In this document: one piece after another, positions 17,430 through 29,898 of the stretch
Numbering within the stretch: the first letter of the stretch is position 1
Layout: the number at the start of each line of letters is the position of its first letter
Origin: Allopontixanthobacter sediminis
GTDB lineage: Bacteria; Pseudomonadota; Alphaproteobacteria; Sphingomonadales; Sphingomonadaceae
Assembly (NCBI RefSeq): GCF_009828115.1
Contig: NZ_WTYL01000002.1
Span: 868,001-932,000 of the forward strand
Reading direction: 5' to 3'
DNA length: 64,000 nucleotides
The notes under the pieces: model-generated
The model's database searches: none
What the model saw: only the letters and a program-made list of their open reading frames with translations
What the model was told of the DNA's origin: nothing
Position numbers and translations under genes: made by a program

Positions 17430-17490
17430 TGGCGGATTTGAGCCAATCTTGGCGAAATTGAGGCAGAAAAGTGGCAGATTTGAGTAAATC
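17430..17490 (+). repeat. Two 19-bp imperfect direct repeats
   Basis: TGGCGGATTTGAGCCAATC (17430-17448) recurs as TGGCAGATTTGAGTAAATC (17472-17490), 16 of 19 bases identical and 42 bases apart, about four helical turns. They lie between divergent polA and the first acidic lipoprotein gene, so they could be binding sites for a regulator of either. No known site is recognised. Confidence 0.4.
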
Positions 17491-17608
17491 CGCTTGCGCC
17501 GTCACATTATCGCCATTATTCAGCACCTCGAAGTCGCCGACTTTGGCCGACCTCACGCATGACTCCGATGGGGCATGCGATATCACTCGCTGTTTAAGGA
17601 ATTTTAAC

Positions 17609-17878
17609 ATGCGTAAGTTCGTACTTGCTGCCGCAGCTGCCGGCGCCGCTCTGACCCTCGTAGCTTGTTCGGAAGCTGCTCCTGAAGCTGAAGCCGATTC
17701 CGCGATGGCCGATGCCGAAGCAAACATGGAAGCTGCTGGCGAAGCCGTTGATGCAGCTGCTACCGACGTTGAAGCTGCTGCTGACGCGACTGCCGAAACT
17801 GCCGAAGCGACTGCCGATACGGCTGCAGCTACCGCAGAAGACGCAATGGCTGAAGAAACTCCAGCTGCTGCTGAGTAA
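17609..17878 (+). CDS. Small acidic Ala/Glu-rich lipoprotein (paralogue 1)
   Basis: 89-aa predicted lipoprotein. The signal peptide MRKFVLAAAAAGAALTLVAC ends in the lipobox LVAC, so the mature protein starts at the lipidated Cys20. The mature part is almost entirely Ala, Glu, Asp and Thr (repeats of the AEAT/ADTA type) and probably helical. The ATG at 17609 has AAGGA eight bases upstream; the longer open frame before it is not credible. The next gene is a clear paralogue. The function is unknown; a periplasmic spacer or envelope-stress role is only a possibility. Confidence 0.85.
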   Translation: MRKFVLAAAAAGAALTLVACSEAAPEAEADSAMADAEANMEAAGEAVDAAATDVEAAADATAETAEATADTAAATAEDAMAEETPAAAE

Positions 17879-17913
17879 TTCTCAGACTACAATTTTGAAT
17901 TAGGAATTTTGTT

Positions 17914-18165
17914 ATGCGTAAGTTCGTAATTGCTGCAGCTGCTGCTGGCGCTGCCCTGACCCTCGCCGCTTGTTCGGAAGGCACTCAGGAAACCACCGAA
18001 GCTGCTGCTGATTCGGCCATGGCCGATGCAGAAGCAAATGTTGAAGCTGCCGGCGAAACCGTCGAAGGCGCTGCTGCCGACGTTGCTGTTGCAACTGACG
18101 AAACTGCTGCAGACGCAGAATCCGCCATGCAGAACGAAACCGAAGAAGAAGCTCAGGCTGACTAA
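17914..18165 (+). CDS. Small acidic Ala/Glu-rich lipoprotein (paralogue 2)
   Basis: 83-aa lipoprotein nearly identical to its upstream neighbour over the signal peptide (MRKFVIAAAAAGAALTLAAC, lipobox LAAC) and similar in the segment DSAMADAEANVEAAGETVE. The acidic C-terminus ends in a Glu-rich tail. TAGGA before the ATG is the ribosome site. The pair is a recent tandem duplication, 35 bases apart, probably one transcript ending at the hairpin that follows. The function is unknown. Confidence 0.85.
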   Translation: MRKFVIAAAAAGAALTLAACSEGTQETTEAAADSAMADAEANVEAAGETVEGAAADVAVATDETAADAESAMQNETEEEAQAD

Positions 18166-18267: not shown

Positions 18268-19296
18268 TCAGCCGCCGTTATACGCCGCGTTGGCCCAGTT
18301 TTGCGGAGCGGACTTGGCATAACCTTCATACAGGGCACGGGCGATTTCGGCGATGCGCGCCTCGCGGGCACCGCGCGATCCCTGGCCGGTCACATAGATC
18401 GCCACGGCAATCGCCCGGCCATCCGGCGCTTCGATAATCCCGATGTCGCTGGAAGTGTTGTTGAGCGACCCTGTCTTGTGCGCCACCTGTGCATTTGACG
18501 GCAGCAGGGCGGGAATCCGCCGGGTGCCCGTGCGGCAGCGTTCCATCGCGCCAAGAATGACACGGCGGCTGGAATCGGACAAGAACTTGCCCTGATACAG
18601 GCCCGCTAGCAGGTCGATCATGGCTTGCGGGGACGCGCTGTCACGTTCGTCGATATGTGCCGCCGGATCGAATTCGCCATCGTCGCGCACCAGGGTAGCG
18701 ATATCCCGGTCCAGCTGGAACTCACGGATCCCGGCGCGGCGCGTCCAGTCGTTTACCGCCTTGGGGCCGCCGATCACGGCAAGCAGCGCATCCGTGGCCG
18801 GATTACTGCTGCGGGTGATCATCAATTCAACCAGTTCTGACGCCGGTAGATGGGCACCGCGTTTGACCGGAGCGACCCGGCTGGAATACTTTGCCGAACG
18901 GACGGGGACGAGCAGCGGAAATTCGCTGGACAACGACCAGCGGCCTTGCTCGACACCCTCCATGAAGGTTGCGGCTATCGCAATCTTGCTGGTGCTGGCC
19001 ATCGGGAAGCGCTGGTCCCCAAGGATCGAGACCTGCGCGCCGGTTGCGAGGTCAATCGCGGCCACACCAATGCGACCCTTCTCGCCGTTGGCGAGGAGAG
19101 CGATCTTCCGCTCCAGCTGGTTGTCGTAAACCGCCGCGAAGTCCTGCGGCGCCCGCGCCTTGGTGCCGAAGGTGCTGTCGAAAGCTGCCTCGAAATTCAC
19201 CCCTTGCGCATTTGCGGCGCCCACCGGCACGAGGGTCGCTCCCAAGAGAGCGACCGCAGCGCCGACGGATTTGAATAGTCCGGGTCGTAAGATCAT
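18268..19296 (-). CDS. Class A beta-lactamase-fold serine hydrolase
   Basis: 342-aa exported protein. The signal peptide ends at ANAQ (near residue 31). The SxxK motif is Ser101-Thr-Ser-Lys104 (FPMASTSKIAIAA) and KTG is in VAHKTGSLNNTSSDIG. The SDN motif is SSN (ITRSSNPATDALL). Counting back from the conserved ERD, the general-base position (Ambler 166) reads Asp and position 170 reads Asp, not Glu and Asn. It belongs to the beta-lactamase2 fold but may hydrolyse beta-lactams poorly or have another periplasmic substrate. No LysR-type ampR is adjacent. Confidence 0.85.
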   Translation of the reverse strand: MILRPGLFKSVGAAVALLGATLVPVGAANAQGVNFEAAFDSTFGTKARAPQDFAAVYDNQLERKIALLANGEKGRIGVAAIDLATGAQVSILGDQRFPMASTSKIAIAATFMEGVEQGRWSLSSEFPLLVPVRSAKYSSRVAPVKRGAHLPASELVELMITRSSNPATDALLAVIGGPKAVNDWTRRAGIREFQLDRDIATLVRDDGEFDPAAHIDERDSASPQAMIDLLAGLYQGKFLSDSSRRVILGAMERCRTGTRRIPALLPSNAQVAHKTGSLNNTSSDIGIIEAPDGRAIAVAIYVTGQGSRGAREARIAEIARALYEGYAKSAPQNWANAAYNGG

Positions 19297-19892: not shown

Positions 19893-20759
19893 ATGAAAAG
19901 CAATTGGACCATCGGGATCATCGGAGGCTCAGGTCTCTACCAGATCGACACCCTTGAAGACGCGCAGTGGATCCGGGTGGATACGCCGTGGGGCGATGCA
20001 TCCGATGAAATCCTGTGCGGCCGTATTGGATCGGTCCAGCTGCGTTTCCTGCCGCGCCACGGGCGGGGCCACCGGATACCCCCGTCCGAGGTCAACACCC
20101 GGGCCAATATCGACGCGCTGAAGCGGGCGGGCTGCACCGACCTGCTCGCAATCTCGTCCGTCGGATCGCTTCGGGAAGACCTGCCGCCCGGGCAATTCGT
20201 GGTTGTCGACCAGTTCATCGACCGGACGAGGAACAGGCCGTCGAGTTTTTTCGGTACCGGCATGGTCGCCCACGTGTCGATGGCCCAGCCGGTGTGCGAG
20301 CGGTTGTCCAACTATGCGGGGAAGGCGGTCCGGAAGGCGGGCGGTTCCATGACCCGGGGCGGGACCTATCTGGCGATGGAAGGGCCGCAGTTCTCCAGCC
20401 GGGCTGAAAGCGACCTCTACCGCCAGTGGGGCGCCCATGTGATCGGAATGACCGCCATGCCCGAAGCCAAACTCGCCCGCGAGGCGGAGCTGCCCTATGC
20501 GCTCATCGGCATGGTGACCGATTACGATTGCTGGCGTGACGATGCCGCCTTTGTCGAGGTGAGCGAGGTCATCGCGCAGATGAACGCCAATGGCACGGTT
20601 GCCCGGGCGGCGGTGGAAGCGTTCGTTCGCGGATTGCCGGAAAAGCGCAGCCCGTCACCGCTCGACACCGTTCTCGATCACGCGCTGATCACCGCCCCGG
20701 ATGCACGCGATCCTGCGATGCTCGCGAAGCTGGATGCCGTGGCGAGAAGGGTGCTCTAG
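19893..20759 (+). CDS. mtnP: S-methyl-5'-thioadenosine phosphorylase
   Basis: Purine nucleoside phosphorylase family 2. It phosphorolyses 5'-modified 5'-deoxyadenosines, classically MTA, to adenine and a 5-substituted ribose-1-phosphate. Seen are the N-terminal phosphate loop IGIIGGSGLY, FLPRHGRGHRIPPSEVNTRANI, the base-binding segment GTYLAMEGPQFSSRAE with IGMTAMPEAKLAREAEL, and MVTDYDCW. The length (288 aa) is typical. No other methionine-salvage genes (mtnA, mtnB) are adjacent. It converges on the radical SAM gene of the putative arsenical cluster, 11 bases away, and could process a 5'-arsinoyl-5'-deoxyadenosine as well as MTA; that is inference. Confidence 0.94.
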   Translation: MKSNWTIGIIGGSGLYQIDTLEDAQWIRVDTPWGDASDEILCGRIGSVQLRFLPRHGRGHRIPPSEVNTRANIDALKRAGCTDLLAISSVGSLREDLPPGQFVVVDQFIDRTRNRPSSFFGTGMVAHVSMAQPVCERLSNYAGKAVRKAGGSMTRGGTYLAMEGPQFSSRAESDLYRQWGAHVIGMTAMPEAKLAREAELPYALIGMVTDYDCWRDDAAFVEVSEVIAQMNANGTVARAAVEAFVRGLPEKRSPSPLDTVLDHALITAPDARDPAMLAKLDAVARRVL

Positions 20760-20770
20760 AACGTAGCTGC

Positions 20771-21766
20771 TCACGCTGAACAGCTTGCCCCGCCAAGGAC
20801 GCAGAATCGTGCGCAGTGGGGGTGATTAAGGGCAACCTCGCCCGACGCTTCAGCCAGTGTTTCGCCCATATCGAACCCCGGATCGAATGGGATGAGAGTG
20901 CAGGCGGCGACGCGCGGACCCGGTTCGCCTTTGCGGTGCACCACCATACGGCTAGTCGCGCACATGATGTCCGCGGGAGATTTGCTCAGTATGTCCCAGC
21001 AATCGGTCGTGATCTCCGGGATATCGGCTGCCTCATCCATTTCGGGGAACAGGACCAGCCGCGCGGGATCGCCAGCGTCGATCGCGATACCTTCACTGGC
21101 AAACAGCGCCGCGTAACCCACGCGGGCAGCTTCCATGCCTTCGCCGGGCAGCAGGCGGCCGGCCACCGCGACGGAGAAATCGTGGTCTGACAGCCATTTC
21201 AGGCCAGCAAGCCCGGGTTCCCAGCTGCGCGGGCCGCGTTCGGCTTCATGCGCAGCCTGGGTGTGATGGTCGAGACTGACGCGGATCGTCAACCGGCGGC
21301 CATGCTCCTCTAGCAAGGCCAGCAAGCGGGCTTCATGGCGGCGCATCGGCTTCATTGCGTTGCTGAGCACCAACGCATCAAAGCCGCGATCCAAGGTGTC
21401 TTCGAGCATCGCCAGGAACTGCGGGTTCATGAACGGTTCGCCGCCGGTAAAGCCGATTTCACTGGTCGGCAGGGCCGAATTTTCGAGCTCATCCAGATAG
21501 CCCGCTACGCTGTCGGCTGAGATATATACCAGCGCATCGTTCGTCGGGCTGCTCTCGATGTAGCAAGTGGCGCAGGCGAGGTTGCACAGGGTACCGGTGT
21601 TGAACCAGAGAGTCTCAAGCCGGGCCATCGGCACCGTTCCGCGCGCTTCGCCCTTGGCAGTCCAGCGCGGATCGGCGAACTTTTCGCGCGGTAACGCGGC
21701 TGCCTCGACCCGAAAGGGTGAGGGGCCGGAAGGCGCGTTGCGGGAATTGGTGCGCGCGCCGCTCAA
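20771..21766 (-). CDS. Radical SAM protein with SPASM-like C-terminal cysteines
   Basis: 331 aa. The radical SAM cluster motif is Cys61-X3-Cys65-X2-Cys68 (TGTLCNLACATCYIESSP), followed by the SAM-binding GGEP (EIGFTGGEPFMNP). The C-terminus has six further cysteines (DCW, MCATS, ACTL and HCARFCVLGGASC), suggesting an auxiliary iron-sulfur cluster. An N-terminal extension FRVEAAALPREKFADPRWTA precedes the barrel. I set the start at a TTG whose last two bases overlap the TGA of the upstream oxidoreductase (TTGA), keeping this extension. The cluster context (ArsM, TIGR04282/04283 glycosyltransferases) suggests a step in organoarsenical biosynthesis, but it lacks the architecture of described ArsS. 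The exact reaction is unknown. Confidence 0.82.
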   Translation of the reverse strand: MSGARTNSRNAPSGPSPFRVEAAALPREKFADPRWTAKGEARGTVPMARLETLWFNTGTLCNLACATCYIESSPTNDALVYISADSVAGYLDELENSALPTSEIGFTGGEPFMNPQFLAMLEDTLDRGFDALVLSNAMKPMRRHEARLLALLEEHGRRLTIRVSLDHHTQAAHEAERGPRSWEPGLAGLKWLSDHDFSVAVAGRLLPGEGMEAARVGYAALFASEGIAIDAGDPARLVLFPEMDEAADIPEITTDCWDILSKSPADIMCATSRMVVHRKGEPGPRVAACTLIPFDPGFDMGETLAEASGEVALNHPHCARFCVLGGASCSA

Positions 21767-23181
21767 TTCATGGCCCTGCGCAGTTTGGCGACCACCGCGA
21801 CATATTTCTTCGGCAATGATCCGAACACGGTCGGCTCCCATGCGGCAAAAGCTGCGGCCTTGGCGATTTCGCTGCGAGTGGGGTAGGAGATTATCGCGCT
21901 GCCCATGTCGAAAGTCCCACTCTTGCCGGTGATGCTCTGGCTCCACGGCAGCAACAATTCGCCCGCATTTTTGCCTACGATGGTGACGCCAAGGACCTTC
22001 TTGCCTTTGAGGACGAGCTTCAGGAAGCCGTCCGTCGCATCCTCCGCAATCGCGCGTTCGTTGTGGTCGAAGCCTTCCTTTACCACGGTTACCTTGTCGC
22101 CGAATTCCTTGCGGGCGTCCGCTTCGGTCATGCCGACCTGCGCCACTTCCGGGTCGGTATAGGTGCACCACGGCAGCGCTTTCCAATTTACCTTGGTGGG
22201 CAGGCCGGTCGTTATCTCGAGCGCGACATTGGAACCTTCATGGCCCGACAAATGGGTCAGCCGCGGTCCGTCGCGGCAGTCGCCGATGGCGTAAATCGAC
22301 TTCACCGAAGTGCGGCGGCGCGCATCGACGATAATGCCGTTATCGCCCGTCTCGATGCCTACATCCTCAAGCCCCAGGCCGGAGATATTGGCTGTCCGCC
22401 CGGCGGCGATCAGCAGATGCGTCCCGGAGATTGCCGGACCATCCGACACCTGCAGCGTAATCGCGCCGAAGGACCCGCTGACACTTTGGGCTTTCCCAAA
22501 TACGAACGCGGTGCTCTCGGCTTCCAACCGGGCCTGGACTACGGCGACCGCCTCGGGATCGTCGCGGCCCATCAACCGGCCCGGATTGATCACCGTAACC
22601 TGGCTGCCGAGCCGCCGGAAGCTCTGGGCCATCTCCATCCCGATTACGCCCCCGCCCACAATCACCAGATGGCCAGGAAGTTCGCGTAGCTCGAACAAAT
22701 TTTCGTTGGTCAGATAGGGTACGTTATCGAGGCCGCTGATCGGAGGAATGGTCGGCCTGGAACCCGTAGCGATCACGATGCGCGGCGCGGTCAGGGTGCG
22801 GCCGCCCACCGCGACCGAATGTCGCCCTGTGATGCGCGCCCGCTCGCGGATCACTTCGCAGCCCATTTCCTCGAACCGTTCCTGCGAATCGTGCGGTTCG
22901 ATATGCGCGATTGCATCGTGGATGTGCTTGTGGACACCGGCCCATGCAACCTGCGGCGGCGCGAGGGTGACGCCCATCCATTCCCCGCGGCGGGCTTCCT
23001 GGGCGCGCTTGGCGGCGGTGATGAGCGCTTTCGAAGGGACGCAGCCGTTGTTGAGGCATTCGCCGCCCATCTTGTGCGCCTCGATCAGGGCAACCTTCAA
23101 GCCGAACAGGGCGCATCCCCCGGCCGCGGTCAAACCGGCAGCACCGCCGCCGATCACGATTGCGTCGTGGGTAAATTTCAT
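21763..23181 (-). CDS. FAD-dependent pyridine nucleotide-disulfide oxidoreductase
   Basis: 472 aa, resembling dihydrolipoamide dehydrogenase and mercuric reductase. The FAD-binding motif IVIGGGAAGLTAA is N-terminal and the redox disulfide is Cys42-X4-Cys47 (GGECLNNGCVPSK). NAD(P) binding is in LVIVGGGVIGMEMAQSF, and the second FAD motif is SIYAIGDCRDGPRLTHLSGHEG. The C-terminal catalytic His-Glu of LPD (HxHPTxxE) is replaced by SYPTRSE, with Tyr for His. It lacks the paired C-terminal cysteines of MerA. The ATG at 23181 is the start; a longer open frame upstream is antisense to arsM and not real. It may reduce an arsenic intermediate or a thiol partner; inference from context. Confidence 0.88.
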   Translation of the reverse strand: MKFTHDAIVIGGGAAGLTAAGGCALFGLKVALIEAHKMGGECLNNGCVPSKALITAAKRAQEARRGEWMGVTLAPPQVAWAGVHKHIHDAIAHIEPHDSQERFEEMGCEVIRERARITGRHSVAVGGRTLTAPRIVIATGSRPTIPPISGLDNVPYLTNENLFELRELPGHLVIVGGGVIGMEMAQSFRRLGSQVTVINPGRLMGRDDPEAVAVVQARLEAESTAFVFGKAQSVSGSFGAITLQVSDGPAISGTHLLIAAGRTANISGLGLEDVGIETGDNGIIVDARRRTSVKSIYAIGDCRDGPRLTHLSGHEGSNVALEITTGLPTKVNWKALPWCTYTDPEVAQVGMTEADARKEFGDKVTVVKEGFDHNERAIAEDATDGFLKLVLKGKKVLGVTIVGKNAGELLLPWSQSITGKSGTFDMGSAIISYPTRSEIAKAAAFAAWEPTVFGSLPKKYVAVVAKLRRAMN

Positions 23182-23310
23182 GCCTGATCCCGAAGTTGGT
23201 GGTGAAGTGTAACGAAAAGGTGCTGCACAGCGAATGCGTTTATGCCAAGCCCTTGGCAGATTTTTGGCGCGCTCGCCTCCACCTTTCGCATTCCAGGGAC
23301 CGGAAGTTAC

Positions 23311-24366
23311 ATGAATATCGAAAACAGCCGTGATTATTACGGCAAGGTGCTCGAAGGCTCGGAGGACCTCAAGACCGACGCGTGCTGCACCGCCGAAGCA
23401 CCGCCGCCGCCGATCATGACCGCGATGATGAATGTTCACCCCGAAGTTCGCGCACGTTATTACGGCTGCGGCCTGGTGGTCCCGCAGGCGGTCGAAGGCG
23501 CGCATATCCTCGATCTGGGATCGGGAAGCGGGCAGGATGCCTATATTCTGAGCCAGCTGGTCGGCGAAACCGGTTCGGTTACCGGGGTGGACACCACTCC
23601 GGAGCAACTCGCGGTGGCGAACCAGCATCTCGAATGGCACCGCGAGAAATTCGGTTACGCCAGATCGAACGTGACCTTTGTGGAAGGCGACATCGAACAT
23701 CTCGACGCGCTGGGCCTGCCCGAGGGGCACTACGATGTCATCGTATCGAACTGCGTGATCAATCTGGTGGCAGACAAGGCCGCCGTATTCTCCGCGGCGC
23801 ACCGTCTGCTCAAGACCGGAGGGGAGCTGTATTTCTCCGATGTCTACGCCGACCGCCGGGTCCCCGCCGAATTGCTGGACGATCCCGTGCTGCACGGCGA
23901 ATGCCTGTCGGGCGCGCTGTACTGGGGCGATTTCCACGCGCTCGCGAAGGCGGCAGGGTTCGCCGATCCGCGCCTGGTTACCAGCCGGCCGCTGGCGATC
24001 GGCGATGCGACGATCGCGGAAAAGCTGGGCGGAATCACCTTCAATTCCGCCACCTACCGGCTGTTCAAGCTGGACGGACTGGAACCGGAATGCGAGGATT
24101 ACGGGCAGGCAGTCCGGTACAAGGGCACGGTTGCCGGTTCGGAGCGGGCGTTCGAACTCGACGGTCACCACAGCATCGAAGCGGGGCGGAGGTTCCCGAT
24201 CTGCGGCAACAGCTGGAAGATGCTGGCCGACACCCGCTTTGCTCCGCATTTCGAATTCTTCGGTGATTTTTCGAAGCATTACGGCGTGTTTCCCGGCTGC
24301 GGCAGCGACAGCCCCTTCGCCAGCATCACCATCGGTCCCGCCGACGCATCGACAAGCTGTTGCTGA
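23311..24366 (+). CDS. arsM: ArsM-type arsenite methyltransferase
   Basis: 351-aa SAM-dependent methyltransferase. SAM binding is in ILDLGSGSGQDAYILSQL and the acidic loop GVDTT. The four cysteines that bind trivalent arsenic in eukaryotic and bacterial ArsM are all present: Cys25 (TDACCTAE), Cys53 (YYGCG), Cys148 (VSNCVINL) and Cys198 (HGECLSGAL). Their spacings of 28 and 50 residues for the first and last pairs match those of the algal CmArsM. The tail ends in Cys-Cys. The ATG at 23311 starts the family homology; upstream codons are not conserved. It divergently faces the oxidoreductase (130 bases between) and overlaps the SDR gene by 7 bases. It should methylate As(III) in the cytoplasm. 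Confidence 0.92.
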   Translation: MNIENSRDYYGKVLEGSEDLKTDACCTAEAPPPPIMTAMMNVHPEVRARYYGCGLVVPQAVEGAHILDLGSGSGQDAYILSQLVGETGSVTGVDTTPEQLAVANQHLEWHREKFGYARSNVTFVEGDIEHLDALGLPEGHYDVIVSNCVINLVADKAAVFSAAHRLLKTGGELYFSDVYADRRVPAELLDDPVLHGECLSGALYWGDFHALAKAAGFADPRLVTSRPLAIGDATIAEKLGGITFNSATYRLFKLDGLEPECEDYGQAVRYKGTVAGSERAFELDGHHSIEAGRRFPICGNSWKMLADTRFAPHFEFFGDFSKHYGVFPGCGSDSPFASITIGPADASTSCC

Positions 24367-25415
24367 ACATCCTGCTGACCGGCGCCGCGGGATTGATCGG
24401 CGGGGAGCTAGCCGCGCGGTTGGTTGCGGCAGGCCACCGCGTCACGGCCATGGTGCACCGGACGCGAGAAATTCGCGCCAACGACGGCAGCTTGGTCACA
24501 CCACATGAAGTGATAACCGGCGATGTCTCCTTGCCGCTGTTCGGATGGGGCAAGGGCCAGTTCGATCGGCTTACCAAGACGTGCGACCTGCTGGTCCACT
24601 GCGCCGCCACCGTCCGCTTCGACCTCGGGGAGGAGGAATATTCCCGGGTGAACATCGGCGGAGCGGCCAATGCAGCGGAATTCGCCCGCGCCGGGAACAT
24701 GCCCCTGCTGCATGTCAGCACCGCCTATGTCTGCGGCACCAGGGATGGGCCAATTCTGGAAAAAGAACCGCTGCCGGATGCGGGCTTCGCGAATGGCTAT
24801 GAAAAATCCAAGGCGGCGGCCGAACGGCTGATCCGCGCAAGCGGGGCCCGCTTCGCCATCGCGCGTCCGAGCATAGTCGTGGGGGACAGTATCAGCGGGG
24901 TCATTCGGCAGTTCGATACCACCTATGCAGCGTTTAAGCTGATCGCCGAGGGCCATGTCCGCCATATGCCGGCACGCGAGGGGGCGACGCTGGATTTCGT
25001 GCCGGTGGATCATGTCGCAGGTTCGCTAGCCAACATTGCCGGCAAGATGAACAAGGCGGATGGCGGCACCTTTCACCTTGTTTCCGGCCAGCCGATCCCG
25101 GTGACCGAATTCACGGCTGCGATTGCCGCGTTCCCGCAGTTTCACCGACCGGAACTGGTCTCGTCGGATCTGTTCGACCCCACCAGCCTGCCGCCGCTGG
25201 AACGCCGCCTCTACCGCCGGGTGGCGGGCCTTTATGCGAGCTATTTCCAGCGCGACCCGCATTTTGATGACCGCCAAGCGCAGGCGCTCACAGGCCGGAC
25301 GTGTCCGCCAACCGGTGCGGAATACCTGCACCGTCTTATCACGCACTGCATCGACGTGGGTTTCCTGACCGGCGAACCAGTCAGCGAATATGCGGGTAAT
25401 GCCGTTCGAGCCTAG
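24360..25415 (+). CDS. Extended SDR / NAD-dependent epimerase-like protein
   Basis: 351-aa Rossmann protein. The cofactor loop is Gly8-X2-Gly11-X2-Gly14 (LLTGAAGLIGGELA), followed by LLVHCAATVRFD and LLHVSTAYVCGT. The catalytic pair is in NGYEKSKAAAE (YxxxK), and ARPSIVVGDS is typical of extended SDRs and of the male-sterility (acyl-CoA reductase) branch. The start is a TTG at 24360 overlapping the arsM stop by 7 bases, so the two are translationally coupled. It could reduce or epimerise a sugar or acyl intermediate of the arsenical; the substrate is unknown. The 3' end overlaps the convergent glycosyltransferase gene by 35 bases. Confidence 0.85.
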   Translation: MLNILLTGAAGLIGGELAARLVAAGHRVTAMVHRTREIRANDGSLVTPHEVITGDVSLPLFGWGKGQFDRLTKTCDLLVHCAATVRFDLGEEEYSRVNIGGAANAAEFARAGNMPLLHVSTAYVCGTRDGPILEKEPLPDAGFANGYEKSKAAAERLIRASGARFAIARPSIVVGDSISGVIRQFDTTYAAFKLIAEGHVRHMPAREGATLDFVPVDHVAGSLANIAGKMNKADGGTFHLVSGQPIPVTEFTAAIAAFPQFHRPELVSSDLFDPTSLPPLERRLYRRVAGLYASYFQRDPHFDDRQAQALTGRTCPPTGAEYLHRLITHCIDVGFLTGEPVSEYAGNAVRA

Positions 25416-26106
25416 CGCGCGCGCCAAATGCCCACATGATCCCGACCTTGAAGTAGATCCAGTTGGCCTTCAGCGGTCCCCAAGCGGCGATCCGCCGGTC
25501 CGAAGTCTCGATCCAGCGCGGGACCAGCCGGATCTTGCCGAGGCGCGCCAGCTTGATGCACAAATCCGCTTCCTCCATTACCGGCGTGCCCGGATCGCAT
25601 CCGCCCACCGCGAGATACTGGCTGCGGCGGAAGAACATCGCATGGTCGCCGAACAGTAGCCGCACTCCCTGGAAGAACAGATGCGGCCGGGTAATCAGCG
25701 GTGCGTACCAGGTCTTGATCCAGTTGTGGAACGTGGTGAACCATCGGATCTTGTCGGGCCCGCGGATTAGCGGCGTGAAACCTGCCAGAGCTAAATCCCG
25801 ATCGGCGAGCTGTGTCTGGATCACCGCGATCATGTCGTGCGGGGGCACCGTATCGGCATGGAGAACGCAGACCATTTCGGTCCTCGCCGCGGCCACGCCG
25901 GCGTTGATCTGGATGGCGCGGCCCCGCGAGGTGGTGATCACGCGCCAGCCGCTGGATTTGAGCAGTGCCGGGCTCGCATCGCTGCTTCCGCCGTCGACGG
26001 CGATCACTTCCGCTGGCTGCGGGTCCAGCGCCGCGATTACGACGAACAGCGCTGGCAGCGCGCGTTCCTCGTCCAGTACCGGGATGACCAGGGTAACACC
26101 GCTCAC
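25381..26106 (-). CDS. TIGR04283-type family 2 glycosyltransferase
   Basis: About 241 aa, GT2 fold: SGVTLVIPVLDEERALP, the nucleotide-binding VIAVDGGSSDAS, a DxD-like site in VCVLHADTVPP, and the late ED/EE motif VMEEADLCIKLARLG. The C-terminal hydrophobic stretch NWIYFKVGIMWAF may touch the membrane. This family is known as rSAM/selenodomain-associated transferase 2 and accompanies arsenosugar genes. I prefer the GTG at 26106, which overlaps the stop of the next gene as GTGA; another GTG at 26124 adds six residues. It is probably co-translated with the TIGR04282 gene. Confidence 0.86.
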   Translation of the reverse strand: MSGVTLVIPVLDEERALPALFVVIAALDPQPAEVIAVDGGSSDASPALLKSSGWRVITTSRGRAIQINAGVAAARTEMVCVLHADTVPPHDMIAVIQTQLADRDLALAGFTPLIRGPDKIRWFTTFHNWIKTWYAPLITRPHLFFQGVRLLFGDHAMFFRRSQYLAVGGCDPGTPVMEEADLCIKLARLGKIRLVPRWIETSDRRIAAWGPLKANWIYFKVGIMWAFGARARLERHYPHIR

Positions 26107-26681
26107 GGAAGGAATTCCGGCCACTGCGCCAAATCTTCCGGCGTATCGATGTCGCTCAGTTCGGGCAGAACCGCGGGTCGGATGCCACGCGCGGCAAACC
26201 GGCGCAGGGTTTCCTCGAACACGCGCTCAGTACTCCACTCCATGTCTTCGAATGCGAAACCTGCGTCCTCGCGGTAGCCAAGCAGATAATAGCCGCCGTC
26301 GCTCGCTGGACCGATCACCATCGGGTCGGTTTGCAGCGTATCGTGCGCGGCCCGCAGGATTGCTGGCGTCAATCCCGGGCAATCGCTGCCGATGACGATC
26401 GCGGGAGCTGGTACGCGGCCGAGACGGGCACTCAGGTCGCCGTCGCCCTGCTCTACGATATTTAAGTCCTCGCCAAGCCCCGCGCGAAAATCCTCCGGGG
26501 AGGCGCCGGTAACCCGCAGTTCGAAGGGAACGCCGCTGGCGCGGGCGACTTCCACCGTATGGGCCAACAGCTTGGTGTAGATCGCCGCTGCGCCGTCCGC
26601 CCCGAAAGCTGGGATCAGGCGAGTCTTGGCCTTGCCCGGTTCGGGCCAGCGGGCGAAAATCGAAATGAGCGGCTCGGCCAT
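26103..26681 (-). CDS. TIGR04282-type transferase
   Basis: 192-aa protein of the rSAM/selenodomain-associated transferase 1 family (GT-A like nucleotidyl/glycosyl transferase). It starts MAEPLISIFARWPEPGKAKT, has the acidic site VIGSDCPGLTPA, then GPASDGGYYLLGYRE and the end LSDIDTPEDLAQW. Members occur with arsenosugar radical SAM genes and are thought to transfer a sugar or nucleotidyl group. The start is the ATG at 26681, beginning the conserved block; no strong ribosome site is visible. It is divergent from the hydroxylase gene, with 52 bases for both promoters, and coupled to the TIGR04283 gene downstream. Confidence 0.87.
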   Translation of the reverse strand: MAEPLISIFARWPEPGKAKTRLIPAFGADGAAAIYTKLLAHTVEVARASGVPFELRVTGASPEDFRAGLGEDLNIVEQGDGDLSARLGRVPAPAIVIGSDCPGLTPAILRAAHDTLQTDPMVIGPASDGGYYLLGYREDAGFAFEDMEWSTERVFEETLRRFAARGIRPAVLPELSDIDTPEDLAQWPEFLP

Positions 26682-26733
26682 GCAGCGGCGATAGCGGCTC
26701 GACTGGCGCGGGGCCATAGGGCATGGATTGGTG

Positions 26734-27531
26734 ATGTCTCGAACGCGTCTTGTCATGGCCCTTGCTGCCGCTGCCGTCGTGGCTGCAATAGTGATTGGCG
26801 AGCGCAAGCGCCCGCTACGGGCGCGCGTCCGCAAGACGGGTCCGCGTACGATGCGCAACATTGCCATGGGGGCGAGCTGCGCGGCGGTAATTGCGGTTGT
26901 CGAGGAGCCGCTGACCAGACGCATCGCCCGTTCCAACTTGCAGAACGGCAGGGGTTTCGCCCGCCAGTTGCCCCGTCCGCTGCGAGTCATCGGCGGGATC
27001 GCGGCGATGGATTACGGATTTTACCTCTGGCACGTCGCCACCCACAAGGTGCCGTTTCTGTGGCGGTTCCACCGCGTGCACCACCTCGATCCGGACATGG
27101 ACGCGTCCACTGCGGTGCGGTTCCATGCGGCGGACATGCTGGTATCGCTGCCTTGGCGGCTGGTGCAGGTACGGCTGTCCGGGGCCAGCCCGAAGAGCCT
27201 CGCGCTATGGCGGCAATTCTTCAATTTCTCGATCCTGTTCCACCACGCCAACCTTCGGCTGCCAGGCAGGTGGGACGAACGGCTGTCGGCGGTGCTGACG
27301 ACCCCGAAGATGCACGGGATCCATCATTCCAACGTGCGAGACGAACGCGACAGTAACTGGACCAGCGGCTTCAGTTTCTGGGACCGGCTTCACGGCACGT
27401 TCCGGCAGGATATCCCGCAGGCCGATCTAGTGATCGGGGTGGACGATCCGGCGGCGGAACAGGACGAAGGGCTCGAAAGTTCGCTTGCCGCTCCGTTCCA
27501 GCCGTTCCCCTCGACCAAACGCACAATGTAA
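26734..27531 (+). CDS. Fatty acid hydroxylase / sterol desaturase superfamily protein
   Basis: 265-aa membrane di-iron oxygenase. N-terminal hydrophobic helices (MALAAAAVVAAIVIG; MGASCAAVIAVV) precede the histidine boxes HVATHK, HRVHHLD and HGIHHS, the ligand pattern of the superfamily. The ATG at 26734 is chosen over a TTG/GTG just before it. It would hydroxylate or desaturate a lipid in the membrane. It is divergent from the TIGR04282 gene. In this context a role in an arsenic-containing lipid is conceivable, but a general lipid role (for example carotenoid or hopanoid modification) is equally possible. Confidence 0.84.
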   Translation: MSRTRLVMALAAAAVVAAIVIGERKRPLRARVRKTGPRTMRNIAMGASCAAVIAVVEEPLTRRIARSNLQNGRGFARQLPRPLRVIGGIAAMDYGFYLWHVATHKVPFLWRFHRVHHLDPDMDASTAVRFHAADMLVSLPWRLVQVRLSGASPKSLALWRQFFNFSILFHHANLRLPGRWDERLSAVLTTPKMHGIHHSNVRDERDSNWTSGFSFWDRLHGTFRQDIPQADLVIGVDDPAAEQDEGLESSLAAPFQPFPSTKRTM

Positions 27532-27621: not shown

Positions 27622-29898
27622 ATGCACACACCATCGTTCACATCGCGCCGATTGGCGCGCCATTCAATCATGGCAGTCCTGCTGTCCTCCGCCACGATAA
27701 CCGCCGCGCAGGATGTGCAGATTGTCCAGCCCGGTGCGCCGGGGCAGGCGACGCGGCAGATCGACGTGGATCAGGCGGTTGCCCTGGCGGACACGAGCTT
27801 CTCGCCCGCTGATGTCCGTTTCATGCAACACATGATCGCCCATCATCGGCAGGCAGTGGAGATGGCAGCGCTGGTCAAGGACCGGACGAACCAGGAAGAA
27901 ATCGTCGCGGTGGCGGGCCGGATCGACGCTTCGCAGGCCGACGAAATGGAATTCATGACCACTTGGCTCGGCCAGCGTGGGCAGCCCGCAACCTCGCCGG
28001 GAATGGACCATTCCGCGATGGGGCATGGTACGCAGGCCATGGCCGGAATGGCGTCTGCCGAGGACATGGCCCGGCTGGCGGCGGCGAGTGGCGGCGAATT
28101 CGACCGATTGTTCCTCGAACTGATGATCAAACATCACGAGGGCGCCCTCGAAATGGTCAAGGTCCTGCTCGAGCAGCCGGGGGCAGCCTATGATCCGGTG
28201 ATGTTCGAGTTCACCAACGACGTGAACACCGACCAGAAGGCCGAGATCGAGCGGATGAACGCATTGCTCGCCAGCCTTTCGGACGATCCACGCGCGGGCC
28301 TCGCCGCCGGTTTCCGTGATGCGGGCGAAGCGATCAGCGGCATGCGCCTGCTGGCAGCGCTGCCCAAACCGGCTGGCTTTTTCGATCCCAAGAACCCGGC
28401 TGGTCTGGCTTTGCCAAAGCCAAAGAAGGATGCCGGCGAGAACGTCGTCAAGGATGGGGAAACGCCCGCGGAGCTCGCAGCCGATGCCGTAGTCGCCGAT
28501 GCGGCGGAAGGGGCCGAAAAGCCGGGCACTCGCGCAGCCGAGGAAACCAAGACCCAGTTCAGCGAACGGTCTCCGCTGTTGAATTTCGCCAACACCGACA
28601 TGGCATTTTCCGGCGATACGCTGGTGGCCGGCAATTATCACGGTTTCAACATCTACAAGTTGGGCGAAGACGGGGTGCCCGGATTGGTCAGTTCGGTAGT
28701 TTGCCCGGGAGGCCAGGGCGATGTGTCCGTGGTCGGCGATCTGCTGATCATGTCGGTCGAACAGACCCGCGGCCGCGTCGACTGCGGGTTGCAGGGAGTT
28801 ACTGGCGACGTCAGCGCGGAACGGTTCCGCGGTCTCCGGATCTTCGACATCAGCGACCTCGCACGCCCGGTCCAGGTCGGCCAGGTGCAGACGTGCCGCG
28901 GATCGCACACGCATTCGGTCGTGTCGCAAGACGCGAAATCGATCGTGGTCTATAATTCCGGCACCAGCCGTGTGCGCGACGAGGAAGAACTGGCCGGGTG
29001 CATTGGTGAAGTGCCGGGCGATGACCGCACCGCCTTGTTCCGGATCGACGTGATCGAAATTCCGGTGGCCAACCCGGCGGCAGCGCGGATCGTCGACAGT
29101 CCGACAGTGTTCGCCGATCCCGAAACGGGGCGCCTCGCCGGGCTGTGGCAGGGTGGAGATCACGGCGACGATACGCAGGATACCAACCGCACGGACCAGT
29201 GCCACGATATCACGGTCTTCCCTGCCTTGAAGATCGCCGCCGGCGCGTGTTCGGGCAACGGGATCGTCTTCGACATTTCCAATCCGCTCAAGCCCAAGCG
29301 AATCGACGAAGTCGTCGACAAGGGTTTCGCCTATTGGCACTCCGCGACCTTCAACAACGACGGCACCAAGGTCGTGTTCACCGACGAATGGGGCGGCGGG
29401 GGCCGTCCGCGCTGCCGGGCATCCGATCCGCGCAACTGGGGTGCGAACGCGATCTATGACATCAAGGACGGGGAGCTGACCTTCCGCAGCCTGTACAAAT
29501 TGCCCGCGCCGCAGTCGGACAAGGAAAATTGCGTCGCGCACAATGGCTCGATCATTCCGGTGCCGGGCCGCGATATCTTCCTGCAGGCGTGGTATCAGGG
29601 CGGCATTTCCGTGATGGATTTCACCGACAGCGCAAACCCGAAGGAAATCGCCTATTTCGACCGTGGCCCGATCAGCGACGAGCAGATGGCGATGGGCGGA
29701 TACTGGTCGGCCTATTATTACCGGGGCCGTATCTACGCCACGGAGATTGCACGCGGGCTGGATGTGTTCGCGCTGGAGCCGAGCGAGTTCCTGACCGCGG
29801 AGGAAATCGCTGCAGCCGAAGCGGCTGACCAAGGCAGCACCTTCAACCCGCAGACGCAGTATCCGGTAACATGGCCGGACATGGTGACTGCCCGATAG
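27622..29898 (+). CDS. Secreted DUF305 protein fused to a beta-propeller
   Basis: 758 aa. A basic N-terminus and hydrophobic stretch (MAVLLSSATITAAQ) suggest export. Two DUF305-type helical repeats carry His-His motifs: MIAHHRQAVEM (His74-75) and MIKHHEGALEM (His171-172), with a Met/His-rich linker (MDHSAMGHGTQAMAG) that suits copper or other metal binding. A Pro/Ala/Lys linker leads to a propeller resembling LVIVD-repeat proteins from about residue 300 to 740 (FRGLRIFDISDLARPVQV; GIVFDISNPLKPKRI; GISVMDFTDSANPKEI). Six or so cysteines lie there. The function is unknown; a periplasmic metal-binding or signalling role is plausible. A terminator follows. Confidence 0.82.
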   Translation: MHTPSFTSRRLARHSIMAVLLSSATITAAQDVQIVQPGAPGQATRQIDVDQAVALADTSFSPADVRFMQHMIAHHRQAVEMAALVKDRTNQEEIVAVAGRIDASQADEMEFMTTWLGQRGQPATSPGMDHSAMGHGTQAMAGMASAEDMARLAAASGGEFDRLFLELMIKHHEGALEMVKVLLEQPGAAYDPVMFEFTNDVNTDQKAEIERMNALLASLSDDPRAGLAAGFRDAGEAISGMRLLAALPKPAGFFDPKNPAGLALPKPKKDAGENVVKDGETPAELAADAVVADAAEGAEKPGTRAAEETKTQFSERSPLLNFANTDMAFSGDTLVAGNYHGFNIYKLGEDGVPGLVSSVVCPGGQGDVSVVGDLLIMSVEQTRGRVDCGLQGVTGDVSAERFRGLRIFDISDLARPVQVGQVQTCRGSHTHSVVSQDAKSIVVYNSGTSRVRDEEELAGCIGEVPGDDRTALFRIDVIEIPVANPAAARIVDSPTVFADPETGRLAGLWQGGDHGDDTQDTNRTDQCHDITVFPALKIAAGACSGNGIVFDISNPLKPKRIDEVVDKGFAYWHSATFNNDGTKVVFTDEWGGGGRPRCRASDPRNWGANAIYDIKDGELTFRSLYKLPAPQSDKENCVAHNGSIIPVPGRDIFLQAWYQGGISVMDFTDSANPKEIAYFDRGPISDEQMAMGGYWSAYYYRGRIYATEIARGLDVFALEPSEFLTAEEIAAAEAADQGSTFNPQTQYPVTWPDMVTAR

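Follow-up and report, generated by a model that had tools for sequence, protein, structure and literature searches.

Gene content and layout of the cluster

In the present study, we analyzed a gene cluster in a 64,000-nt stretch of the Allopontixanthobacter sediminis genome (contig NZ_WTYL01000002.1, positions 868,001 to 932,000; hereafter the window, in whose numbering all coordinates are given). The cluster spans positions 19893-27531, comprises eight intact frames (Table 1) and includes the gene of a radical S-adenosylmethionine (SAM) protein, here called rSAM, which we propose as a replacement for the arsenosugar enzyme ArsS. The other seven genes encode homologs of S-methyl-5'-thioadenosine phosphorylase (MTAP), a flavin adenine dinucleotide (FAD)-dependent oxidoreductase, the methyltransferase ArsM, a short-chain dehydrogenase/reductase (SDR), transferases of the TIGR04283 and TIGR04282 types, and a hydroxylase.

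Table 1. Genes of the cluster, with their positions in the window.
Gene product	Position	Strand	Matches
MTAP homolog, 288 aa	19893..20759	+	TIGR01694 287.2 bits (cut-off 274.85); solved MTA phosphorylases
Radical SAM protein (rSAM), 285 aa, proposed ArsS replacement	20771..21628	-	PF04055 48 bits
FAD-dependent pyridine nucleotide-disulfide oxidoreductase, MerA/lipoamide-dehydrogenase-like, 472 aa	21763..23181	-	
ArsM, arsenite methyltransferase family, 351 aa	23311..24366	+	5evj 358.7 bits
Extended SDR, NAD_binding_4 type, 351 aa, TTG start	24360..25415	+	PF07993 138.8 bits
TIGR04283-type glycosyltransferase (GT2), GTG start	25381..26124	-	TIGR04283 161.7 bits (cut-off 182); PF00535 58.8 bits
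TIGR04282 family transferase, CofC/nucleoside diphosphate (NDP)-sugar-transferase-like	26103..26681	-	TIGR04282 179.7 bits (cut-off 134)
Fatty-acid hydroxylase superfamily protein, 267 aa, TTG start	26728..27531	+	PF04116 85.9 bits

A first-pass annotation had named all of these genes except MTAP, and the seven it named are indeed open frames at this place. The overlapping junctions that it described were borne out by the coordinates: ArsM and SDR overlap by 7 nt, the convergent SDR and TIGR04283 genes by 35 nt, and TIGR04283 and TIGR04282 by 22 nt. The end of the MTAP gene and the stop of the rSAM gene are 11 nt apart. The rSAM open frame extends over 471 aa, of which the N-terminal part is spurious, leaving an actual protein of about 285 aa. 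A single operon was ruled out because the strands alternate in four blocks.

The radical SAM protein and its relation to ArsS

The rSAM protein exceeded the cut-off of the Pfam Radical_SAM model (29.5 bits) and carries the CX3CX2C motif of radical SAM enzymes. In an alignment of 16 diverse members, the motif residues C15, C19 and C22 were invariant, as were six further cysteines (C210, C223, C243, C272, C276 and C283), giving nine in all. No NCBIfam equivalog cut-off was reached; the models matched were the Rv1681 model NF049973, which was the best match (76.5 bits of 380, residues 7-167 only), and the ArsS model TIGR04167 (57 bits of the 300 required for membership, N-terminal half only), and both were matched by 16/16 members of the alignment. 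By these scores, rSAM is outside the ArsS family as curated. A search for ArsS elsewhere in the genome of the window gave a best other match of just 28.5 bits, and ArsS over the TIGR04167 cut-off was found in 0/147 genomes of the order. The first-pass reading of a non-ArsS enzyme in the position of ArsS thus held.

The same annotation had called the enzyme unrelated to ArsS, which is too strong, because rSAM has the C-terminal cysteine pattern of ArsS. This pattern (MC ... C[DT] ... H..C..C....C), which was written after both families had been inspected, fitted 40/40 rSAM sequences and 20/20 ArsS sequences (18 distinct) and occurred in 0/12 other radical SAM proteins of the window's genome. 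It was also found in all 77 of the 80 named rSAM loci described below in which the core frame was found. Profile comparison of rSAM with ArsS yielded an E-value of 2.9e-15 for the N-terminal core (columns 4-184). For the C-terminal part, in a test from which a cutting rule omitted one of the 40 rSAM sequences, the local profile score was 26.8, whereas 30 column shuffles gave no more than 20.0, and the cysteines were in register. ArsS differs from rSAM in length (about 320 aa vs about 285 aa), and rSAM has an extra invariant cysteine, C210. Taken at the level of sequence, rSAM and ArsS are likely distant kin with a common auxiliary motif, with modest support for homology in the C-terminal part. 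The predicted structure of rSAM (predicted local distance difference test score 84.6, weak at the final residues) showed a radical SAM fold whose closest PDB matches were BlsE, SkfB and SuiB; a sequence search of the PDB returned no ArsS structure.

Co-occurrence of rSAM, ArsS and the transferases

We recorded gene presence in 147 genomes of the species' own order (Sphingomonadales) and in 319 genomes of its phylum (Pseudomonadota); the co-occurrence p-values take no account of genome relatedness. In the order, rSAM was present in 54 genomes, TIGR04283 in 58, TIGR04282 in 56, ArsM in 31 and MTAP in 81. The presence of rSAM and the two transferases was nearly identical: rSAM and TIGR04283 occurred together in 51 genomes (rSAM only in 3, TIGR04283 only in 7, neither in 86), and rSAM and TIGR04282 in 52 (only one of them in 2 and 4, respectively, neither in 89). 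The corresponding figures were 30 together, 24 rSAM only, 1 ArsM only and 92 neither for ArsM, and 48 together, 6 rSAM only, 33 MTAP only and 60 neither for MTAP. Within the own family, both transferases were carried by 19/19 rSAM genomes. Several outlying genera have rSAM and the transferases at separate sites amid apparent housekeeping genes; because the genes sit apart there, the pattern reflects more than linkage.

In the phylum sample, 25 genomes carried rSAM and 115 carried ArsS (113 over the cut-off), and the two were never found together. TIGR04283 was detected in 152 genomes, of which 9 with weak matches were dropped, leaving 143 strong ones (the fragmentary matches of G222 and G339 were counted as strong by hand). 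Among these 143, ArsS was present in 103, rSAM in 24 and neither in 16, so that 127 had one of the two radical SAM genes. Conversely, TIGR04283 was present in 24/25 rSAM genomes, the exception being G153. Within the own class, rSAM was present in 20/23 strong-TIGR04283 genomes and TIGR04283 in 20/20 rSAM genomes, and no sampled genome of the class, with TIGR04283 or without it, had ArsS at E<=1e-40. The five rSAM genomes outside the class likewise had no ArsS.

Gene neighborhoods of rSAM and ArsS

With the window proteins as queries, we examined 40 rSAM loci, one per genome, from 40 of the 53 other order genomes with rSAM. TIGR04282 and FAD were each found in 22 loci, TIGR04283 in 21, SDR in 16, ArsM in 15, MTAP in 10 and the hydroxylase in 4 (one weak), compared with 1 each for the control genes GroEL, beta-lactamase and host-attachment-like protein and 0 for CopM. 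Wherever MTAP occurred, it lay no more than 181 bp from rSAM. The FAD oxidoreductase adjoined rSAM in 14/18 loci of the own family, and SDR was present in 16/18 of these loci vs 0/22 others. The 7 loci of a distant clade of rSAM (34-40% identity) kept the same company, with FAD in all 7, ArsM in 6, TIGR04282 in 6, TIGR04283 in 5 and MTAP in 3, and this clade with such partners recurred outside the own class (L216, L219).

A further set of named rSAM loci consisted of the best 80 of 568 candidates, with flanks of unequal length and partly from the same genomes as the order sample (L126, L128, L131, L138 and L183 are G123, G112, G136, G074 and G020, respectively). TIGR04283 and TIGR04282 were each present in 34 of them, either in 36 and both in 32; FAD was present in 22, SDR in 15, hydroxylase in 11, ArsM in 9 and MTAP in 6, and the controls GroEL and beta-lactamase in 0. 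Where the flank reached at least 18 kb, 20/41 loci showed a transferase. In Reyranella (L153, L158), rSAM is followed by TIGR04283 and then TIGR04282 on a single strand; in Caulobacter sp. SLTY (L203), the three genes lie together, with TIGR04282 on the opposite strand. Ruegeria pomeroyi (L198) also carries rSAM.

The neighborhoods of some true ArsS genes were similar in content. We examined 12 ArsS loci; because they were partly chosen for TIGR04283 on the same contig, the counts are not frequencies, and the ArsS protein itself was not extracted in 4 of them. TIGR04282 was found in 9 loci, TIGR04283 in 8, FAD in 7, and ArsM, MTAP and hydroxylase in 2 each. The ArsM proteins (L205, L213) were 59% identical to that of the window, MTAP lay near ArsS in L212 and L213, and a weak hydroxylase homolog stood immediately before ArsS in L206 and L207. 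The order ArsS-TIGR04283-TIGR04282 in L206, L207 and L208 places ArsS in the slot that rSAM fills in Reyranella.

These results demonstrated that rSAM, TIGR04283 and TIGR04282 form a conserved core, to which ArsM, FAD, SDR and hydroxylase are optional additions and MTAP a frequent neighbor. The check for co-occurrence across genomes that the first-pass annotation had suggested for its seven proteins came out positive for rSAM and its two transferases, and FAD, ArsM and SDR do recur beside rSAM in relatives. SDR and hydroxylase were rejected as core genes, since their distribution is too restricted.

A plasmid search returned 2 records with an rSAM match. On the Roseomonas plasmid p546-1 (L226), a second radical SAM gene, DUF547 and TIGR04282 come before the rSAM homolog, and a phosphonate-type ABC transporter, which perhaps imports an arsonate or phosphonate, comes after it; an FAD gene is also on the plasmid. 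For the Marinobacter plasmid, the gene table is incomplete and lists no partners.

ArsM and the other partner proteins

The ArsM protein of the window has four cysteines that align with the solved ArsM 5evj and that we take to be the conserved ArsM cysteines. It scored below the NCBIfam cut-offs of PRK11873 (158 bits; cut-off 263) and AsSugarArsM (82.5 bits; cut-off 400). Among the 24 order genomes with rSAM that have no close ArsM (E<=1e-40), 21 were rechecked, leaving out the incomplete G078, G111 and G113. A second ArsM-like protein, whose best partial PRK11873 matches scored 94.7 to 114.3 bits, was found in 9/21; in the other 12, PRK11873 matched with at most 67.2 bits, in the methyltransferase core only. 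The second ArsM type, defined from split PRK11873 matches (one half only for G023 and G092) and two sequences (L102, L103), has an insertion between the two match halves and a Cys-Cys end, and it occurs in rSAM genomes without the window-type ArsM. A protein of this second type, a 33% match, was found in ArsS locus L214.

TIGR04283 was the best family of the GT2 protein of the window, though under its cut-off, the next family scoring 52.8 bits. The TIGR04282 protein matched 3cgx, a 'putative nucleotide-diphospho-sugar transferase', with 76.4 bits. One MTAP was found in the window's genome at E<=1e-15. Several other rSAM genomes (G021, G060, G066 and relatives) have a second MTAP-like protein of about 255 aa that is 33-37% identical.

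Flanking genes

Two genes from MTAP lies a class A beta-lactamase homolog (18268-19296, minus strand; 198.7 bits vs a cut-off of 200), with a homolog at the equivalent place in one relative (L033). A pair of adjacent short Ala/Glu-rich frames at 17471-18165 (plus strand) has in common a lipoprotein-like stretch, MRKFV.AAAAAGAALTL.AC. Adjoining the hydroxylase, positions 27622-29898 (plus strand) encode a protein of 758 aa, one part of which is DUF305/CopM-like and another choice-of-anchor-B-like; this protein was found in 0/40 rSAM loci of relatives. Pfam matches among more distant genes of the window included RpoB, RpoC, SAM synthetase, pyruvate kinase and tRNA synthetases.

Proposed pathway

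The block probably serves arsenosugar-type biosynthesis, with ArsS replaced by a member of a radical SAM family for which NCBIfam has no model. The initial arsenosugar steps are catalyzed by SsArsS together with SsArsM, according to the available passages of PMC8552651, and in oxo-arsenosugar synthesis a radical SAM enzyme adenosylates arsenic, as stated in the part of PMC12159101 that was available. The ArsM-ArsS pathway of Synechocystis (ArsS = TIGR04167) resembles the present locus in its ArsM, TIGR04283, TIGR04282 and FAD oxidoreductase partners and, at some ArsS loci, in MTAP. By homology, ArsM would convert arsenite to dimethylarsenite. From its position and partner genes, rSAM may then generate a 5'-deoxyadenosyl radical from SAM and, like ArsS, join it to the methylated arsenic. 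The product would be a nucleoside resembling methylthioadenosine (MTA), probably of a shape that MTAP-family phosphorylases naturally accept; phosphorolysis by the MTAP homolog would release adenine and 5-dimethylarsinoyl-ribose-1-phosphate. MTAP lies beside rSAM and also near ArsS, which therefore suggests adenine removal. Because TIGR04282 resembles CofC and NDP-sugar transferases and TIGR04283 is a GT2 enzyme, the simplest use of the pair would be activation of the arsenoribose by the former (as a CofC/nucleotidyltransferase-like enzyme) and its attachment to glycerol or a lipid head group by the latter. The FAD disulfide oxidoreductase could conceivably keep arsenic or thiols reduced, and SDR and hydroxylase might tailor the aglycone or lipid in the lineage of the window.

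A precedent for the two middle steps exists in hopanoid synthesis, where the radical SAM enzyme HpnH adds a 5'-deoxyadenosyl group and the phosphorylase-family enzyme HpnG then removes adenine. This logic resembles the steps proposed for rSAM and MTAP; the substrate there is carbon, and the MTAP of the window scored 26.4 bits of 187 on the HpnG model.

Evidence against the proposed pathway and alternative explanations

Several observations weigh against an arsenosugar role and against rSAM as the substitute of ArsS. In model scores, the rSAM protein is closer to Rv1681 than to ArsS, and its firm match to ArsS is confined to the N-terminal core: in global mode no C-terminal alignment was obtained, and, scored by clade, the C-terminal part reached 24.1 in the distant rSAM clade and 16.5 in the clade of the window, which falls inside the shuffle range. 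For the C-terminal half of one ArsS protein, the score was 17.3, barely higher than the best of 12 control halves (range 9.2 to 16.1); one control (L227) was a wrong frame whose correct version entered the cysteine-pattern check only. The mutual exclusion of ArsS and rSAM largely tracks taxonomy, since 20/25 rSAM genomes and 0 ArsS genomes belong to the own class, and three class members (G162, G332, G415) have strong TIGR04283 without rSAM. As for the neighborhoods, 15/40 rSAM loci, all outside the own family, and L044 inside it lacked any of the other seven cluster genes, and neither transferase lay in the available flank of 44/80 named loci. Close ArsM was absent in 24/54 rSAM genomes of the order and no ArsM was recognizable in 12 of the 21 rechecked, including 8/19 of the own family; these 12 would need external methylated arsenic, an unseen methylase or another substrate. 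Finally, 'arsenosugar' in the names of TIGR04282 and TIGR04283 is database naming rather than tested function, and the single-copy MTAP of the window's genome may serve only methionine salvage.

In an arsenic-free alternative, the core trio would make a 5'-deoxyadenosyl-derived sugar compound and ArsM would be an accidental or later addition. The 12 genomes that keep the trio without a recognizable ArsM speak for it, as do the outlying families with rSAM and transferases apart amid apparent housekeeping genes. On the other hand, 30/31 ArsM genomes of the order have rSAM, the two genes are adjacent in two rSAM clades, and the same transferase pair partners ArsS, whose arsenic chemistry is described in the available part of PMC12159101. 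We consider this alternative unlikely. Arsenic would remain the substrate if rSAM acted like ArsL, the radical SAM enzyme that forms a C-As bond in the arsinothricin cluster arsQML and acts there with ArsM on arsenic (PMC8552651, available passages). Transfer of an aminocarboxypropyl group would yield MTA as co-product, which the adjoining MTAP could salvage. MTAP, however, is also found near true ArsS (2/12 loci), whose reaction should yield no MTA, and the constant partners of rSAM are sugar-transferase families, none of which is mentioned for arsQML in those passages. ArsL is also longer (about 428 aa) and has only three conserved cysteines, according to the same passages, as opposed to about 285 aa and nine invariant cysteines in rSAM, which falls outside the ArsL definition given there. 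An ArsL-type reaction is thus distinctly improbable. It is very unlikely that the genes are chance neighbors of unrelated function, with MTAP, SDR and hydroxylase especially outside any common pathway; mixed strands, the confinement of SDR to the own family and the rarity of the hydroxylase fit such a view, whereas the core trio co-occurs whether linked or unlinked. SDR and hydroxylase themselves may be such neighbors.

Significance of a proposed second radical SAM family

ArsM, ArsS, ArsL and the names of both transferase families were already known. In searches of an open-license library, which excludes most subscription papers, we found no description of the rSAM family, the gene set or the mutual exclusion of rSAM and ArsS; an Aromatoleum island with a 'moaA'-annotated gene and a TIGR04282 gene is described in the available part of PMC8801600. 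Beyond the locus itself, we tentatively suggest, at somewhat less than even confidence, that a second C-As bond-forming radical SAM family displaced ArsS across Alphaproteobacteria, with scattered cases outside, making unrecognized arsenosugar or arsenolipid producers, and that an MTA-phosphorylase-family enzyme removes adenine in both the ArsS and the non-ArsS pathways.

Arsenosugars are important organic arsenic forms in marine food webs, and surveys based on ArsS would miss bacteria that bear rSAM. The locus also suggests which enzyme may remove adenine, a step to which the available literature passages assign no enzyme, and the cluster points to culturable groups in which adenine removal could be tested.

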